64,000 nt of DNA, taken from NCBI RefSeq assembly GCF_036370855.1, contig NC_088102.1:67031601-67095600 (forward strand). The letters are read 5' to 3'. Both the position numbers and the translations under genes were made by a program. Positions 30,387-50,307 of this stretch are shown one piece after another. This DNA is from Dromaius novaehollandiae (Eukaryota > Chordata > Aves > Casuariiformes > Dromaiidae). Each line of letters starts with the position of its first letter. The first letter of the stretch is position 1. Under the pieces are notes generated by a model. That model ran no database searches. It was not told the DNA's origin and saw only the letters and a list, made by a program, of their open reading frames with translations.

Positions 30387-33300
30387 TTAGCTCCATGCCG
30401 TCTTCCTTGACAGGGAGTGCTTCAGGCCTGCCGCGTTGACACCTCCAGGCTGCAGGGATGTCTCCAAACCCACCAGCATGTCCTGATGGCACTCCTGGAT
30501 GTTCAGCGGGTACCGTGCCCTCACAAACTCATAGGCTGCCAGCAGTCTCATGCTGTGCTTGACCATCAAGTACTGGATGACGCAAGCAGGACCCAGAGAG
30601 TAACCATCTCTGCAGTGGATCAGGACACGCTTCCCTTTCTCCAGCGAGGCTTCGATGCACTCGTTGATGTCCCGGAAGCAGGGCTGCCCCAGTTCGCAGT
30701 GGTCCCCATCCAGGGGAGCCTGGATGTCAACCTTGAGGCGTGACCAGCTGTGCCTGAACCCTCTCCGGCCACAGGTGCAGGGAATGATGCTCAGGCTGCG
30801 GTCACTGGGCAGACTGCTCATATCAATGATGCTGTCAATGCTGTTCTTGCACAGTGCCCGCCCGCTGTAAGCAGCGTTGAGGTTCCCCAGGTAGATGCAG
30901 TCTGTTATCCTAGCAATGATGGGTTCTGTGAAGGGGAAACACACAGGCTCTCCTGGCTTCGGACCACTGGGATCCTCAGGATGTGGGTTCTTTTTCCAGG
31001 TACCGCTGCGAGATTTCTTGGAGCTGGCACTGGACAGAGGGCTAGAATCTGATTCGAAGCTGCTGCTCCACGATGGTGGCAAGAACGAGGAGAAGTGGCT
31101 GGAAAGCTTGGCTTTGGAAGGGGGCTCCACTGGGCAAGGCAGGGGAAGACCCAGGCTGGGACTGGATCTGAGAGCGCAAGAGAGGGATGCCTGCACTGGG
31201 GACCACGTGCTGTGGGCTGCCCCTCTGCTCTGAGCCTCATCCATCTGCAAAGCAGGAAAGGACTGGTGAGACTGCAGAAATTCATTGCTCCACTGCAAGA
31301 ACAAGGAAACACGACCTAGCAGTAGGCTTTACCCAGAGCAGCACTTGGGGTCCAACCCACCAGTAGATACCAGAGGCCCTGAAGACCTTGCACATCACTA
31401 GCCCAAGTATCCAGCCAGCCTGTTCCCCTGCGACAGAGGCATGAAGATGCAGTGAACACTCACCTGGGCCTGTGGACCACTCTGCCAGTCCTGGGGTGCT
31501 GGGTGGTCGAACTGGCCCTCCCCTCCTGATGACAGTGACAAGCAGAGAGACCAGGGTGTCCTGCCAGGCTGCTGGGCTACAGATGCCACATCCCTAGGCT
31601 TCTCTTCATGTGCTTCACTTTTACTTGTCATCAAGTTTGGACAAGAGCCTGTAGGAACAGAACAGCTCAATACAAACACTCGCATACAAGTGTTTTCATT
31701 AAAAACATTGACCTCATAGAGAAACAGGGCATTTTAATGAGCCGTTCCACTCCACAGGGACACGTCTTGGTGGGCTCTGCTGGAGAGGTTTGTGACTCAC
31801 TGTGAGCTGGAGCTGGGAGGAAGGACAGCATTTTAAGCTGAAATCATGGGGGAGGGAGGTGAAGAGCAGCTGCAGGGAGAAGAAAAACAACAGAAGACCC
31901 CACTGGATAAAGCCCCTTCTGACTACGATAACACCTGGGGGCTTTTTGAGCTGGAGGCAGGGAAACTGTAGGATGTAAGGAGCAAAAACATCTGCTTTCT
32001 GACCTTAGGCCTCAGCAATGGAGATGCTCTATCCATAGCCAGGAGTAGGGTCTCTTGGTTCCCAGCTCAGCCCTAAGCTCAGGTCTCACTCTCAGGAGCA
32101 TTATCCACTTCCATTAAGGGCACTTTGGCTAGAAGGTCCCTCAGACCCTTCCCACAGCCCAGTCCTTTCTTCATGGCTCAGTACAGCCCCAGACTGAGTG
32201 CACAGGCCCTCTGAAAGCCTAACACCCCTGCCCAGACACTGGTCCGTACCCAGGCCTCGAGCAGCTGATGTGTCGGGGAGGTGAGCCTTCCCACATGGCC
32301 ATGGCGTCTGTCCCTCTACAGAGCAGACTCCTCATCACAGTCCTCTGTGCGTTTGCTGTCCTCAAATCCTGCACGCTAAAGACCAGAGCAGGAGCCAGAA
32401 CATGTCCAGAGAACAGACTGATATCTCTCTGTTTTTGAATGAGCAAGGTTTCAACACGTCTCCATTCTTCAAAAGCCTTTTAGGCTCTACACCAATATGA
32501 CTCCCCAAGGTCAGTGACTGCCCTGCAAACCAGTGGCCACCTAGAGACTGATCCTCCAGAAATCATCCATTTCAAACCCACTGGCTTTGCAAGTGCCATG
32601 TAACTCCAGAAGCCACATTTAAGAAAAGTTGGCAGCTGTGAAGACCCTCGACAGTCTTACCTACCCGAGCAGCACTGAGAAAGAGCCATGGGAGAAGACA
32701 GCTGCAAGGAGATGGGCCTCTGGAAGGTCTTCTGGAGGTGCTTCATAATCAGGCCTGCAAAGGCAGGGGATGAGCTCACGCTAGGAAAGGGCAGAGCTGG
32801 AAAAATTCAACACAAAACCCCACCAAGCGTCTTTCAAGGACAGGCCCAAAGAGCAACTCTTAGAAAGCCACTTGGCATGGGCTGTTACAAAGAGAGGGGA
32901 CAGTCCTGGTCCTAATCGCTTGCCCCCAGCCCATGTCATGGTACAACATGTCCTTACTGGATAACGCAAGCCTGAAATCCAGCCAGCCAGAGTCTTTCAG
33001 GCACAAAGATCTGTCAGCTGGCATCCAGTGTGAGATCCGGAGTCAGACCCAAGTTCAGAACATATCCAAAAGTCATGGCTGGGATAAAATGAATACAACC
33101 CTTTAAAGCAACACACTAGAGAGACCTTGAGGAATTTGTTTCTTACCTGTTCTTGGTCACATCCAGAATAAAGTTCCCCACCAGATGCTCATAACATGGA
33201 TGCCAAGTGTTTTAACTGGGGTGCATTAAGTGATGTCCTCCATGCCAAAATTCGGGCTTCTCTGTCAAAACTGGTCTGACCGATATGTAAGTTTAGCACA

Positions 33301-34361
33301 AAATGCTCTCCATCTAGGTGTGCAAGGCCTTTCCCACATATATTCACCCAAACTGGTTAGTTAATCCAGTACACAGCCAATTCTGCAAGTGCTGAGGGTG
33401 GATTTCATCCGAGCAAACCTAGATGCTGACTGTGCAGAAATCAACATTTGAGCCAGCCACCTCCAGTCCCTTCACAGGCAATGGGGAGAAGTGGGTATTT
33501 CAAGGGTGCAATTTTTCTTGTCCTAAGGCAGATGGATGATTCGTGCCTTAACGTGCCCGTTTCCCACAGAGGGATTGTTGACCCCGGATAACTAGCTCTG
33601 ATGGGGACGTCTGTAATGTCCATGTTTGCAGGAAGGGTGATGAAACCCCTGCTGAGTTTCACGCTTGCGTGGAGACCTACTGTCTTCCCTGCCTCTGCTA
33701 CCCATACTTAAAATGAGTTTGGGTGTTTGCAAGTTAAGGCCTCATTTCAGCTTGGTTTAACTCTTATTCCTCATTGACTTCAATCTTGTTTCTGTTTAAA
33801 TTGAACTGCAGTAAAACTGCCCGCAGGGGTTTCATCAGCTTTGCGTGAGGCTAGCGAGGCTGGTTGAGAAATCCCCATTTTATTAACACGCAACAAATCA
33901 TCACAGCCACAGGCGCTAAATCTGGCTTTTCCAGGAGATTTAACTTCAGTCGCCCTGAACAGACATTTCTGAGGCGATCTTTTATACCGAACCAAGGGTA
34001 AGAAGGTGAAAGACCACCTCACAGACCCTGCTTAAGCCTTCTCAAGTCCCCGTGACACGGGTGAGGACCAGCCGATTTGAAAATGAGAAAGAGGAGACGA
34101 ACGAGATGGCCCAAGGGGAATCGTTCCCGCTGGGGGGGACGGAGCCGGTCTGCACCTCCCGCCCCACGCTCCGGCCAGCAGCCCGCGTTTGCTCACACCT
34201 CGCGTGCTGGTGGCACCTGCAAGCCCCCGGTCTGCCCTGCCGTATGCCCCCGGTGCCCCCCGGCCCCGCTCACCCGTGACGCCGTCCTTCCTGGGGTGGC
34301 ATTTTTTGTCTGGCAGCTTGAAAGCGATGAAATCCTTGTGCTGCTTCTCTGACGGCTCCAT
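30387..34361 (-). CDS. Dual-specificity-phosphatase-like protein, probable pseudophosphatase
   Basis: Coding exons: 34,361-34,274 (ATG, ends phase 1), 31,648-31,464, and 31,244-30,387 (stop TAA). The joins are in phase and give 376 residues. Residues 1-91 (MEPSEKQHKDFIAFKLPDKK...) and a Ser/Pro-rich stretch (about 100-190) look disordered. A DSP-type fold follows at about 199-353: ITDCIYLGNLNAA, then IDSIIDMSS, then the P-loop region VLIHCRDGYSLGPACVIQYLM, then a C-terminal helix pattern ending in HQDMLVGLE. The canonical motif is HCxxGxSR. Here His301, Cys302, Gly305 and Ser307 stay but the essential Arg is Leu308, so phosphatase activity is doubtful and phosphoprotein binding, as in STYX-type proteins, is a better guess. 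Acceptor ACATTTCAG before the ATG exon implies an untranslated exon upstream. I do not recognise the gene; human has none here that I know of. Confidence 0.85.
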
Positions 34362-35270
34362 CCTGCTCAGGCCTGAAATGTCAAGAAATATGAGGTCGGG
34401 GCATCTCCCCACCCGAAATAAATTCGACCCCCCGCAGTTTCACCTCCGTAGACATTTTATATGGGCCAGTCGGATACAGGAGGTAGCAGGACCACCCGCT
34501 CCGCTTCACAGCCGCACAACTGGCACTGAAACAACCTGACACACTGATGCTGTTGCCCAGGATGACTTGAACTTCCCCAGGTTGGGGAAGGGACTGTGAA
34601 ACGTCCCCCCACTGCTCAGGGCCGGCAGATAGAAAGCAAGTGAAGAAGCACAGCTTGGGTGTAGGTTTTGGTCTGCCTGCCACAAAGTTCAAATCGAAAG
34701 AGCAGTCAGAGAGTGGGGAGAATTTCTGCACCTTCAGTACCATCAGCTCTATTTTTCAGGCTTAGTTTAGGGAAAGAGGCATTTTCCTTCCTGCTACCCC
34801 AGGGAAGAAAATATCCCCCCTCCCTTTCTGCCCACAGCACTGGAGGATGCACCTTGGTGTGAAAAGGCAACTGCTGTGCTGGGAGTGGAAGGGGACAGGA
34901 AAAGAGGAGAAGGAGGGGGGAAAAAAAGAGGAGAAGGGGAAGGGTAACTCCCTGCCTCTCTCCGAGAACCTGAAAGCTGCCTTCACAGCGGACTCAGCCG
35001 GGGAAGAGCACCGGGGCAGAGGAGGAAGCAGGCTCCCCAAAACACAGCAGCGTGCAGCCCTACACCCCCCTCCTGCTGCCCTTTCCCCCCTTGCCTGCTC
35101 CCATGCCGCCCAGGACCCCCACGGCACGCACCCCTCTCCCCCGCAGCTCTGCCGGCGCCCCTCTTTCCCACCGGAGTTTCCCAGAGGCCACTTGGCCGAC
35201 GGGAGCCGTCCCTCCCGCCCCGCGTCGCGCCCCACCGTTCAACCAATTTTGCACCCCTGGGGCGTTTTAC

Positions 35271-35405
35271 CGTAGGCAGGGGCTGGATGCGGGGGCCTGT
35301 GGCTGCCGGGGGGCTCAGCCCCCACAGCTGCCCCCCGCCACCCCTACGGAGCCGTCCCGGGGAGCAGGGCGGCGTGCCGGGCAGCCTGGGAGATGTAGTT
35401 TCGGT
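35271..35405 (-). promoter_or_regulatory. Candidate untranslated exon 1 and ZNF143-type promoter of the phosphatase-like gene
   Basis: On the minus strand, AAACTACATCTCCCAGGCTG (35,401-35,382) resembles the ZNF143/Staf promoter motif ACTACAATTCCCAG. About 110 bases further, CTGCCTACG meets a donor GTAAAACGCC (35,270-35,261). This would splice to the acceptor in front of 34,372. The block is CpG-rich. Start site and splice are inferred. Confidence 0.4.
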
Positions 35406-42583: not shown

Positions 42584-44600
42584 GGCTCCGCTCCGGAGAC
42601 CTGGGAAAAGCAAACAGAAGTCTCAGGCAAGCGACTGCCTCCGCAGAGGCGCGTGCGCTCCCGCTGCCTCCGCTCGCAGCTCTGGAAGAGTAAATACGGT
42701 TAAAACGCCAAGACAAAGCGCAGCGGGAGCGTTTAGGGCTTGGCCCCTTCAGAAACCGGGCACGAAGCCCTCGCCTGGGACCGCGTTGCGGGAAGGGCCC
42801 CGCCGAGCCCGCTGGCCCCCGGCCAGCCCCGAGGGCGGACAGAGGCGCTCCTCCCCGGCTGCGCCCGTGACGGAGGCGGCAAGCTATGCGCCGTGCCATC
42901 TGCAAACGCAGCCACCGCGAGCACCGAGACCAGGCTCCCCGTATCCCTAGGGAGAAGCCACCTTCGTGCTTCCCCTGACCAAGCTGCTGCTGGAAGCGTC
43001 CCACGGCATCCAGAAACGTACGTGCAACGTTTCGTTTCCCAAAGGATTCCCCGAGTGTAACTCAACGAGTCATTGAATTCCACACTGTTATCATCTGCAA
43101 TAAAACAGCCCCAAAGGCCCCATCGTCACAAAGCCCTGCTGTAGCGGGCCTTGCATCCCCACGTCTAAACACCCCGCCTTGCTTGGGCCACGGGGCCCTG
43201 CTGAGCCGAGCCGAGCCGGGCGGGGGGGCAGGCGGAAACGGGGAGAAAACTGGGTGTGCTGCCGCAGGCGGCTCCCATCCAGCCCTGGCATCTCAGGAAT
43301 CCCGTTCGCACCAGTGCCGCCCATGGCAAGACCGCAGGCGCGATGGGTCCCGCTCGGACACGCGCCGCGGAGGGGGCTCGGCGGAGGCGAGCCCCGCCAG
43401 GAAAGCTGGGCAGCAGTTTCGGGGGCCACGGTTTTGGTGGGATTTGTGGTAGTTGCATTTAAGTTTGCTCCTGCAGCCAAGCAGGGCACTCTCCTGCCGC
43501 GGGAGACGGTGCAGCGGTGGCAAAGGCATCCGGGGAGCAGCCGAGAGGACCCGCGAGGAGGGCCGGCATCCCGCTCCTCACCCCATCCCCGCTCCCAGTT
43601 CCCCCCGGGATAGCAATGCGGCGGGGATGCCAGCTGCCGGGGGGGGGTGACTGGAGCAATCGGGACTTACCGCGGTGCTCCCTTCCCCGCCTCGCCGTCA
43701 GCGCCGACACCGGTCTGCACTGCGGGAGCCTCCGCGGCAGGAGCTGCCGCCCGGCTGGGAGCGGGCGCCGTGGCACGGCCCCACCTCGGGGACTCGAGAA
43801 CTGGTACTGCACAGGGCTGTTTCACCAGCCGGGTTTATCTCGAGGGAGGGATTTTCCCGGTTTTGTTAGCTTTGCGCTGCTTATCGGGCACCCTGCGAGT
43901 TTCCTCCCGGAGGAGGGCCGAGGCTCACGGCCCGCGGGGCGCGACGGCCGGGCAGACGCAGCCCTATTGCATGAAGTCCATGCTTGCTCGTTCCTCCCCT
44001 TGCTGCCAATTGAGCAAAGCCAGCCTGACCCCCACCTTGTCACGGCTGAGACATGCAGTGGGGCTGGAAGCTGGGAGCGCGGCGTGATGCAAAACCGCGG
44101 GAGGAAGGAGCCCGGCGAGCGGCCGCCGGTGACGGCAGTGCGGGATGCGGACCCACGAGCCCGGCTGGATTTTCTGGTGGCCACACAGGTGCCACCACCC
44201 CGGGTGGCCGCCCGAAACCAAGCAATGCAATAAAATGGGACCAAAAGAACATGTTTTTGCTCAGCCCAGCAATGGGGATGCAGCAGACTGTGGGGCATCT
44301 CCGGTTCCCGGCTTACTCACAAAAATGCATCGGGCATGGGAGGTTTGGTTGTGTGCAAAAAGCTGCTCATCCGAGCAGCCTTTTCGCTTGCTAAACTCAG
44401 GGCTGGTTTTCAGACAAGGGAAGAGCAACCCCAAAAACACTGCGCTAAGAGCGCAAACGCGGAGGTCGAGGCAAACCTCGGCGGACGCCCGGCCTCCCCG
44501 GAGGCCCGCGAGCCGGCTGTGCGGCGCAGCCTGGGAAATGCAGTCTCGCCGGCGGCCCGGCCGCTGCAGCCGGGCTCGGCGCCAGGCCGCGGGGCTGCCT
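42584..44600. other. CpG-rich divergent promoter region between SYT8 and the nucleotidase gene
   Basis: About 2 kb of GC-rich DNA separate the minus-strand SYT8 coding start from the plus-strand nucleotidase promoter. It holds the candidate SYT8 first exon, but I see no other exon. GCAGCCTGGGAAATGCAGT at 44,525-44,543 resembles a ZNF143-type motif on the minus strand, and CTACAAATCCCGG at 44,599-44,611 resembles one on the plus strand. Confidence 0.4.
43671..43840 (-). promoter_or_regulatory. Candidate SYT8 untranslated exon 1 and promoter
   Basis: A strong minus-strand donor, GTAAGTCCCG (43,670-43,661), follows GC-rich sequence ending GAGCACCGCG. It would splice to the acceptor TTTTCCCAG before 42,600. 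A GATAAACC stretch near 43,832 could act as a weak TATA. A second possible minus donor (AAAG|GTAAGA near 44,770) suggests an alternative first exon. Confidence 0.4.
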
Positions 44601-45998: not shown

Positions 45999-48900
45999 AT
46001 GGCCGAGCCCGAAAGCACCATCCTGAACACCGACGTGAAACAGGTCAGCTTGTCACTAAATGCAGATTCGGTGTTTCCCAAGCTTAACTTCAGCGTGTTT
46101 TGCAATGTCACCCTCAGCGATGACAACCACAACACGACGTCGCAATGGCCTGAATTGCTCACGTCCAGGCAACTGGAGCCCTCAAACACAGAGGCTGCGG
46201 CCGAAGCAGCCTGTTTGAGGGCCGTGGGGTATCTCTAGGTCCCAGGGGGGTCCATGGTGTGCAGATGGGAACAGGCGGAAGGGCTGAGGCTTTAAAATTG
46301 CTGGCGAGCACAGCGTGCATATATATGCATATACTGCAGCTCAGCAATGCCCAGCTCAGCGCAGGGAGGTGACTGAGGCCGTGGGGTGCCCAGACCTGCC
46401 CCAGCGATGGAGCAATCCCCTCCGCGTGAGCCGTCCTTGGCGTGCATCACGCTCACCTGGCAGGTTGGGCTGTCACAGCCGCCCACCCCGGCCTTGGTGG
46501 CCTGGGCATCCCTCCTGGCACACGTGCCCCACAGGCCCTCGCAGGCATCAGCGGAGCCAGAAACGACGGGGCAGGTGTGATAGCTCCAACGCCCACCCCA
46601 ACGCCCCTGGCCACCTCCCCGCCTGACCGCTCTTTCCTTCCGGCTCCGCAGAAAGACCCCAGCCAGGCGCTGGTCATCGCGGTGACAACCAGGGCCATCT
46701 TCGACCTGGAGGAGGAGCACGCGCTCTTCCTGGCCAAGGGCAAGGACGAGTACGTGAGGCACCAGCAGGCCAACCAGGACAAGCCCCTGCCACCGGGCAC
46801 GGCCTTCGCCTTCATCCGGGTGAGCCCCCTGCCCAGCCAGGGCCATGTACATACCTGGCTTGGTGGCTTTTCTGAGCTTTCCAACCTTCCCCTCCAGCAA
46901 GGAGGGCTGCCCCATCCACACCTCGCTTGCAGCGTGGGCTGAAAGCCCATTTCCATCCTTGCTCCCAGCTCCGTGCTGACCACGTTGAGCCACTTCCGGC
47001 TTTCGGCCTCATTATTCCCATCCCAGGGTGCGGATACACGTGTCCTGGCCCCGCTGGAGGCTCTGGCAGCGGCGTCCTGCTCCCTGCCCTCCTAGGTCTG
47101 GTTTTTATGGGATGCCCACGCTGCCCGGCTCCCTCACGCTCAACGCTGTATAATGACAGCTGTGGAGCAATGTCCTCGCTGTGCCTGGCCTCCAGCCCTA
47201 TCCAACTGCTCAGTCACAAATCAGAGCCCTGGCAAAGTCATCACCAGCGCCGAGCCAGTCTGGGCGACTGCTGGAAGCGTTTGGTGCCCATGTCGGCTCC
47301 TCGCAGGCGGTGCAGTCCGTGAACGAGCAGCTCCTGGCGAGCGACCCGGCGGAGCAGGACCTCTTCGACGTCATCGTGCTCTCCAACAACAGCCCCGAGA
47401 GCGGCACGCGCATCATCAACAGCGCCAAGCACTACGGTACGGGGAGCCCGGCGCTGCCGTGCGGCCACCTCTCCTTTGGGGCACTGTGAAACGGGTACGG
47501 CGAGAAAGGGAGGCAACAGCGGCAGTGCAGAACCCGGGGCCAGGAGCCACCCAGCCACCAGGGAAGGGTGATATTTTAAGGGGAAGGGGTTATTTTGGCA
47601 GCAGAAGTCAAATTCCTGCTGGCTCCAAGCAGCTTTCCCAGGGTGTCAGAGCACATTGCAAAGGCCAGAGGAGAGTCTGACTCTTCCTTCTGCCTTATCT
47701 GTTGCACAGGTCCTTACACCAGTAGGACCTAGCAGCATTTTGTGCAGCCTCTGCATCCTCAAACAGCCACTCGAGAAACCAGGGCTACAGAAAAATCCCA
47801 GCATGGCTTTTGGACAGGTTCCTATAGGAGCAGTGGGACAAGAAGGTGCAGCAGGAACAGCAGCAAGTTCTCTGCATGGCCCTAGGGAAGGCCACTAGAT
47901 ACCAATGATTTCTGCCATTTCAGGCAGCCCCTACCATGACCCCCAGCACTCATCATAGCCAAGGGACAGGACTGTCACCTCCTTTATGGAGAAGGGGATG
48001 TATCTCAGCTTTGGTGCTGCTGCATACCAAGGTCAGGGGGTGGGGGGAGAGGGAGAAAGAGGGGGGCCCAAGGCAGAGGACACCATCTCATAACAGATTT
48101 TGCTCATCCCCCCAACCCAAAGGCTTGGAGATCTCCAAGTTCTGCTTCGTCAGCGATGAGGACTCAACACAGTACCTGAAATCCCACCAGGTGAAACTCT
48201 TCCTCTCGGCTGACCGGGTGGACGTTTGCAACGCCCTCCGCAGAGGTATCTTCTCCTCTCCGTCCCACGTAGTCCTCTGGACGCACGATAGGGAGTCCTT
48301 GCACCATGCCCAGGTCCCGCAGCCCCAAACCCAGCCCCACAGATGGGCTGTGCTTTCCCAGAGTTTGCTGAGAGCCGAGGTGCACAGCTTGGTCTCGGGG
48401 CCTGTGGCTGCTCCCCAGATGAATGAGAGGGAGCACCTGAGATGCCTGGGATTTAATAGGGATGCTATAGAAGTTTGCTTTCTTAGAACAACAAAAATTA
48501 ACCACTTACTTAATGGTAAGGACCACTTTAAGGGCATGCTTGACCTGAGTTGGAGGGAGTATGGTCTCCCCAACAGCTCTAATGGGGTTAATCTCATTAA
48601 TGTGACTGATTTCCTTGGGTATTGAGCACAGCAGCTGGCCAAGCCCCTTTAAGTTAGTAACCAATCAACTACAGCCTGACCAATTTGGGGGGGGGGAGGG
48701 GGAAGGAGGTGTTCCTTAGCTGCAAAGTAAATTCCTAAAATCTCTCTGGTGAATATTGTTGCTCTAACAAGTGTCTCATCCGGGGTCCTCAGTCTGCAGA
48801 TCAGATAAGGAGCAGCTTGCAGGAAGGGAGCCGTAATTAAGCCAATTATACCAATCTGGTGGAGGTGCCAGTCCCGATTACTCACAGCATGACGTGGTAA

Positions 48901-50307
48901 ATCTGGGTGTTAAAGCTGGGCTTGGCAGAATGAGTGTGTGCCAGGAGGAGGGTGGCCCGCACCTGCTGTGTTTGCAGCCACCTCGGATCTCCTATGAGCG
49001 TCTCTCCAGACTTTGGCTAGCGGCTGCTTCCTTGGACCCCAAATAATGTAGCTCCAGAAAGGCTGGGCTGACCCCCAACACAAACCAGCCTGGCTTGGAG
49101 AGCCCAGCCCCACTCGTGTCTTTTCCAGAGACATTTGCAGTGTCACGCAGGGCCATGGCAGAGGTCCAGGGAGAAGCTGCCCATGCACAAGCTGCCCCTT
49201 GGATGAGGTGTCCTAGCTGAACCCCCCCCTTGCCCCTACGCTTTGTCTCACAGGAGTTTCTGCAGCGCTCGTCTTCCAGCAAGAGGTGCAGACCCCCAGC
49301 ACCCAGCTGCGCGTGGTGTTCGATGGAGACGCCGTGCTCTTCTCGGACGAGACGGACCAGGTCTTTCGGGAGAAGGGGCTGGAGGGGGCTGTGCAGTACG
49401 AGAGGGCCATGGAGGCTGTGCCCATGGGAGAGGTGAGCTGGCCGCCCTGTCTACACGGGCAGTTTGCACCGGGCTGCAGATGTCTGTCTCCTGCCAGGGC
49501 TTTGCCACGAGTCCCTTGCAGCAGAAAAAGCACAAATCCTTATGGGTTCCCTTCACATTAACCCCTCCCCAGCCATTGGTGTGGGCCTGGTCAAGCGTTG
49601 CCCTGGAGATGTCTCCTGTAAATGAGCCCTGGGTCTCAAATAGCTGGAGGCAGGTCAGCCGTGGTCACCCGCAACGTCGCCACCACCTTTGGGACCTTTT
49701 GCAATCCAAGTCACCGCGGGTTTCAGACCCAGCAGTGCTGCTAGCTGGGGTGGGCTTCCCTGGTCGCTCCAGGATTAGCACTAGCACCACAGTACTCCAC
49801 TGTCTTCTGACCACCCCAGGCCTTGAGCCAAGGCCAGTGCACGAATGCCCAGTGCCAACCCCAATGTCCAAACCACTTCCCTGCAGGTCTCTGCTCTGCA
49901 AAGGCCTGAAAAGCCCTACAAGGGTAGCTTGTGTACAGTCCGTCTGCTCTTACACAGAGCAGCCACTTCTTCCTGCTCACTCCCAATTCTCTGTGCGATT
50001 CCAGGGTCCTCTGAAGGCTTTTGCCATGCACCTTGGGAAGATGCGAAAGAAGTTCAGCCAAGAGAAATCCCCCATCCGCACCTACCTGGTGACGGCCCGT
50101 AGCGGCCGGGACATGGGCATCCGAGCCATCAAGACACTTCGGGAATGGGGGCTGGCCATTGACGAGGCCTTCTTCATGGACGGGGCTCCCAAGGGCCCCA
50201 TCCTCACCCAGATCCAGCCCCACATCTTCTTTGACGATGGCCTTCATAACATCCAGGGGGCTCAGGAAGTGGGTGTACCCTCTGCCTGGGTCCCCTCGCA
50301 GTGCTGA
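45999..50307 (+). CDS. Cytosolic 5'-nucleotidase 1A-like
   Basis: Predicted cytosolic nucleotidase of the NT5C1 family, which cleaves AMP (and related monophosphates) to nucleosides. Exons: 45,999-46,043; 46,652-46,819; 47,307-47,436; 48,123-48,245; 49,254-49,432; 50,005-50,307. Phases agree, giving 315 residues. Landmarks follow NT5C1[45 protein letters not shown], then the HAD-type motifs [11 protein letters not shown] (Asp179, Asp181), YLVTARS (Thr245), GAPKGP (Lys278) and HIFFDDG (Asp292-Asp293). All catalytic positions are present. The protein is shorter than human NT5C1A (about 368 residues), lacking its Pro-rich N-terminal and C-terminal tails. The first intron donor is a weaker GTCAGC. 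It lies head-to-head with SYT8. Human NT5C1A is on another chromosome, so this is a paralogue, and I give no symbol. Confidence 0.93.

Follow-up and report, generated by a model that had tools for sequence, protein, structure and literature searches.

The stretch analysed here (the window) comprises 64,000 nucleotides of the Dromaius novaehollandiae contig NC_088102.1 (positions 67,031,601 to 67,095,600, assembly GCF_036370855.1). Between the exons of SYT8 and TNNI2, its minus strand carries a candidate gene for a protein with a dual-specificity phosphatase (DSP) domain, whose phosphate-binding loop (P-loop) retains the nucleophilic Cys and lacks the otherwise invariant Arg. The features of the gene are collected in Table 1. 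An earlier, sequence-only reading assigned the gene to 30387-35405 and built it from three exons. These exons (exons 2, 4, and 5 in our numbering) do join in phase to give a protein of 376 residues and a stop codon, with Cys302 and Leu308 in the P-loop. The three-exon structure is thus sound in frame, but a fourth coding exon (exon 3) was overlooked. As for the span, coding begins at the ATG at 34361, and the part from 34362 to 35405 is predicted to consist of a leader, an intron, and the promoter.

Table 1. Features of the candidate gene in the window (window coordinates)
Feature	Positions	Strand	Details
Core-promoter motif ACTACATCTCCCAGGCTGC (M4 / THAP11-ZNF143 type)	35381..35399	minus	Exact match, in a CpG-rich stretch
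Predicted non-coding first exon	35271..35380	minus	Putative donor ACG/GTAAAA; no ATG inside
Coding exon 2	34274..34372	minus	ATG at 34361, MEPSEKQHKDFIAFKLPDKKCHPRKDGVTG; GC by codon position.52/.31/.79
Coding exon 3	32665..32754	minus	90 bases, phase 1-1, 30 residues, in frame; GC by codon position.41/.41/.79
Coding exon 4	31464..31648	minus	In frame; strongest donor of the gene; probably disordered, judged from composition only
Coding exon 5	30387..31244	minus	Ser/Pro-rich stretch, entire DSP domain, short tail, stop
DSP-type domain	30456..30947	minus	Whole domain within one exon
P-loop HCRDGYSLGPA	30585..30617	minus	Leu codon CTG (30596-30594) replaces the invariant Arg
Candidate poly(A) signal AATAAA	29207..29212	minus	~1.2 kb past the stop; putative

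Judged from its sequence, the four-exon gene is the better model, since exon 3 has a symmetric phase, good splice sites, and a coding-like GC content at third codon positions (GC3). The predicted product has 406 residues, with Cys332 and Leu338 in the P-loop, and the 376-residue protein corresponds to the form in which exon 3 is skipped. When splice sites on both strands of the window are scored by consensus frequencies, the acceptor of exon 3 ranks in the top 0.2% (9829 AG sites) and its donor in the top 1.7% (5733 GT sites). The initiation codon lies in the context AGGATGG, with A at −3 and G at +4. The predicted intron that precedes coding exon 2 contains a short purine-rich tandem repeat (34890-34939). 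Tandem repeats were rejected as the source of the open reading frame (ORF), as the two repeat rows found in the 29.5-36.5 kb region are both outside the coding exons.

The Pfam DSPc profile (PF00782, cut-off 33.5 bits) matches the predicted protein at 49.6 and 48.6 bits, the query scoring 49.6 bits beginning with one intron-derived residue, and at 51 bits in the genome search. DSPc is the sole Pfam domain found in the 406-residue protein; the N-terminal rhodanese/CH2 domain of the MAP kinase phosphatases (MKPs) is absent. A match to the Pfam family Tc-R-P (E 0.22) is below the cut-off and was taken as mere fold similarity. Ser and Pro account for 19% and 12%, respectively, of 220 residues, and the N-terminal half is probably disordered by this composition.

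The presence of Cys and the absence of Arg in the P-loop, which the sequence-only reading reported, are read directly from the sequence. The P-loop Gly and first Ser are also retained, while the Arg is replaced by Leu and the next Ser by Gly, so that the loop departs from the HCX5R(S/T) active-site pattern. The column of the general acid is occupied by Gly in the MAFFT alignment and by Asp in one profile alignment. The hydropathy profile of the domain follows that of the paralogue columns (r=0.50), and none of 124 circular shifts reaches as high a value. The candidate agrees with its paralogues at 15 of the 32 columns that are common to at least 75% of them. The PN..F residues, invariant among the paralogue rows with those columns, are absent. 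The sequence-only reading had described frame, splice sites, and fold residues as intact; frame and splice sites are, but erosion of the domain goes further than that reading allowed, the PN..F residues being lost along with the Arg. The term pseudophosphatase is well supported at the sequence level.

The loss of the Arg is exceptional in this genome. The genome-wide DSPc search gave 44 matches, of which one is the candidate, one on contig C35 was not fetched, and 42 belong to 33 fetched loci. The P-loop Arg is kept in all 33 loci, and the candidate alone lacks it. In the peptides as printed, the Cys is visible in 25 of these loci, its position is at or beyond the apparent exon edge in 6, and it is lacking in 2, a STYXL2-like (L030) and a STYXL1-like (L040) gene. 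Such names, here and below, are our own provisional labels, based on motifs. Two of the DSPc matches, G000:C33:17866355-17866504 and G000:C35:31566642-31566791, which are presumably CDC14-like, have identical scores and are perhaps a Z/W gametologue pair.

When 21 DSP sequences, some of them partial, were compared with the candidate, none exceeded 26% identity over the aligned domain; they represent 21 of the 33 loci. A DUSP8-like gene (L029, G000:C5:67175166-67175685) is located on the same chromosome, ~80 kb past the end of the window; at 24% identity to the candidate, it is no near paralogue. Among the human DSPs with a solved structure, to which the comparison with human proteins refers, the best PDB match is DUSP3 (VHR), with 35 bits over 66 residues. 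The P-loop of the DUSP3-like gene in this genome, HCREGYSRSPT, resembles HCRDGYSLGPA of the candidate, and the two share 38% identity over 55 residues. The candidate differs in having neither the Arg nor the following Ser, in its long N-terminus, and in its domain being contained in one exon instead of split as in the DUSP3-like gene. The DUSP14-like and DUSP18-like genes also have the DSP domain within one exon, but they keep HCAAGVSRS in the P-loop and are 23-26% identical to the candidate.

Placement in the DSP tree was tried with DUSP14/18, DUSP3/13/26/STYXL2, MKPs, and DUSP28/12, the short sequences L025 and L040 being omitted from the mixture-model tree. The branch of the candidate is very long (2.6 changes per site with LG+G and 5.4 with the mixture model). 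None of the three groupings tested is rejected, and a fourth, with the MKPs, appears in the best tree but is unsupported. By the approximately unbiased test, the grouping with DUSP3 (p-AU 0.30) and the joint clade with DUSP14/18 (p-AU 0.34) are neither supported nor rejected. Protein and DNA searches of the whole genome for a second copy returned the candidate locus only; six weak DSP matches elsewhere score at most 24 bits. The lack of a second copy speaks against a recent duplicate or a retrocopy, and both origins are disfavoured. A collection of viral contigs gave no pattern match, and a bacterial one gave 28 pattern matches, none of which was confirmed, as expected for a vertebrate gene; these searches have no bearing on orthologues.

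The four coding exons run through 406 codons with no stop or frameshift, and the coding splice sites are usable. The ORF of the DSP domain has the best codon score among the window's 103 ORFs with 150 codons or more, a score biased towards homologues, as DSP paralogues made up most of its training set. Exons 2 and 3 and the DSP domain have a coding-like GC3. The length of the ORF was rejected as evidence, since 13 of 60 simulated windows hold one at least as long. The promoter motif lies with its CpG-rich stretch ~1 kb upstream of the ATG, where the observed/expected ratio of CpG is 0.76-0.88. Only 0.02 matches per window are expected even with up to one mismatch, and the motif occurs 1259 times in the 1.47 Gb genome, versus 0 times for the reversed control. 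Motifs of the M4 type in human are described as clustered near transcription starts in the excerpt of PMC5006282. An Rfam scan of the 28-38 kb region found no family at the gathering score. Taken by these features, the candidate is probably a real protein-coding gene present in one copy.

The neighbouring genes are those named by the sequence-only reading, with C2-domain exons on one side and troponin I exons on the other, both on the minus strand. The TNNI2 exons are located at ~23.6-21.6 kb, on the same strand as the candidate gene. Their joined protein matches PDB 1ytz, which we take to be of chicken origin, at 345 bits, with 10 differences in 178 residues as counted on the alignment. The synaptotagmin C2-domain exons are located at ~41-38.8 kb. 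A second motif of the M4 type, with one mismatch (ACTGCATTTCCCAGGCTGC), is found upstream of the SYT8 exons (44526-44544, minus strand). Further on, exons on the plus strand (46655-50304) match a cytosolic 5′-nucleotidase family (PF06189) and constitute one of three such loci in the genome, and a CTSD-like exon is found at 58.3 kb, also on the plus strand. The excerpt of PMC10525433 lists 16 protein-coding chicken genes for the region (GRCg6a, Ensembl 106), including TNNI2, SYT8, C5NT1AL, and CTSD in this order. The gene order in the window is the same, the 5′-nucleotidase-like gene corresponding by position to C5NT1AL.

We regard the candidate as a single-copy four-exon gene for a dead DSP that most likely serves in docking or scaffolding, independently of phosphate, and assign this reading a probability of roughly 0.55. 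As described in excerpts of PMC4322731 and PMC9464862, the P-loop Arg positions the substrate and is critical for binding its phosphate, with a proposed role in stabilising the intermediate; the Ser/Thr of the loop is assigned to thiolate stabilisation in the former. Since both the Arg and the following Ser are lost, the pocket is predicted neither to cleave nor to hold phosphate. The protein would then be a catalytically dead atypical DSP. Its partner, which may be a kinase, an active phosphatase, or the substrate of that phosphatase, would dock on the exterior of the fold, and the Ser/Pro-rich, probably disordered half may supply regulatory sites. We infer that the protein is expressed, folds stably, is inactive, and acts as a scaffold. 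PTPRK D2 and Styxl2 may serve as precedents for phosphate-independent action. Partner binding by the non-catalytic D2 domain is phosphorylation-independent in the account excerpted from PMC9640194, a possible common mode, and the phosphatase domain of Styxl2 is dispensable for its action according to the portion of PMC11147509 consulted. PTPRK D2 is a domain of a receptor protein tyrosine phosphatase (PTP), not a DSP, and no membership in that group is claimed for the candidate.

Several observations weigh against this reading. The predicted donor of exon 1 is weak, ranking in the top 7.1% of GT sites across the window. Coding-type GC3 is missing from exon 4 and from the N-terminal part of exon 5, and when exon 4 is scored for codon usage, its own frame does not surpass the others. 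As for exon 5 as a whole, 7 of 198 further ORFs in the window with 120 codons or more reach the same GC3 excess, some of them lying over known exons. The hydropathy fit of the candidate is the lowest among the DSPs compared (0.50 vs 0.65-0.87 for 21 paralogues). Finally, no DSP is named between TNNI2 and SYT8 in the chicken list of 16 as excerpted from PMC10525433, which mildly counts against broad retention, or else the annotation is missing there.

The last two points, together with the very long branch and the loss of several paralogue-invariant residues besides the Arg, would also fit a gene in early decay, that is, an atypical DSP that recently became functionless in this lineage, with the P-loop changes among its first lesions. 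This explanation is the strongest of the alternatives, though we hold it to be unlikely on balance, given the 406 codons free of stops and frameshifts, the usable coding splice sites, and the promoter motif. In 1221 unconstrained coding bases, the probability of finding neither a stop nor a frameshift would drop under 0.05 once neutral divergence reaches ~0.02-0.04, an estimate that depends on the assumed indel rates. The divergence of the candidate should be too large to have built up neutrally with an open frame, so any loss must be recent. Most likely, the divergence accumulated under a maintained frame, and constraint was possibly lost recently.

The sequence-only reading proposed a STYX-like protein that binds phosphoproteins, with the dead pocket capturing and shielding phosphorylated partners. 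The candidate resembles STYX, STYXL1, and STYXL2 in having a DSP domain with a disabled P-loop, and shares with STYXL2 (1,158 residues in the source excerpted) a large region outside the domain. The retained Cys, Gly, and first Ser, and a P-loop otherwise near that of the DUSP3-like gene, are compatible with such binding, and some other pseudophosphatases bind phosphosites (PMC11147509, in excerpt). The defect, however, is the reverse. In the excerpts of two reviews (PMC8269279, PMC9464862), these three are the DUSP pseudophosphatases given, and in each the Cys is replaced and the Arg is kept, whereas the candidate keeps the Cys and has Leu and then Gly in place of the Arg and the next Ser. 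The proposal is disfavoured because the phosphate-binding Arg and the next Ser are lost, and we consider it improbable.

A phosphatase with residual activity or a different mode of action, in which another basic residue compensates for the Arg, is less probable still: the nucleophile is kept and a general-acid Asp may exist, as placed by the one profile alignment, but the MAFFT column has Gly and all 33 other fetched loci have the Arg. Two base errors in the assembly, each a single step (CTG from CGG for Arg, GGT from AGT for Ser), could disguise an ordinary active DSP as a dead one, but they would have to arise independently in adjacent codons of a contiguous assembly (271 contigs) in which other conserved residues of the domain are eroded too, and this explanation is the least credible.

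In the titles and abstract openings of the open-access literature searched, gene databases being outside the search, no pseudophosphatase is reported at TNNI2-SYT8; an existing annotation of the candidate as a predicted locus is quite possible. The excerpt of PMC7990949 lists candidate genes within 5 kb of quantitative trait loci (QTL) in chicken, and the QTL at TNNI2-SYT8 has TNNI2, SYT8, and the unnamed ENSGALG00000006608, an identifier found there in several QTL, as far as that of BRSK1. The sequence-only reading suggested that the gene may have been retained in sauropsids and lost in mammals. A broader proposal is that it is conserved among sauropsids, is missing from mammals through loss, and represents a class of DSP pseudophosphatases that lost the Arg and kept the Cys; the fold would have been kept in evolution as a phosphate-blind interaction module, perhaps redox-sensitive through its Cys and perhaps linked to muscle through the TNNI2 neighbourhood. 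We offer it as a doubtful extension.

Members without the Arg occur in other branches of the PTP family, for example auxilin and GAK. If the reading of the candidate as a dead, phosphate-independent DSP is true, one gene would be added to the TNNI2-SYT8 interval, a region with signals for breast-muscle disorder and meat quality in chicken studies (excerpts of PMC7990949 and PMC10525433). A DSP that has lost the Arg and kept the Cys would also separate the state of being dead and still phosphate-binding from that of being dead and phosphate-blind, and would thus bear on the mechanism of pseudophosphatases.

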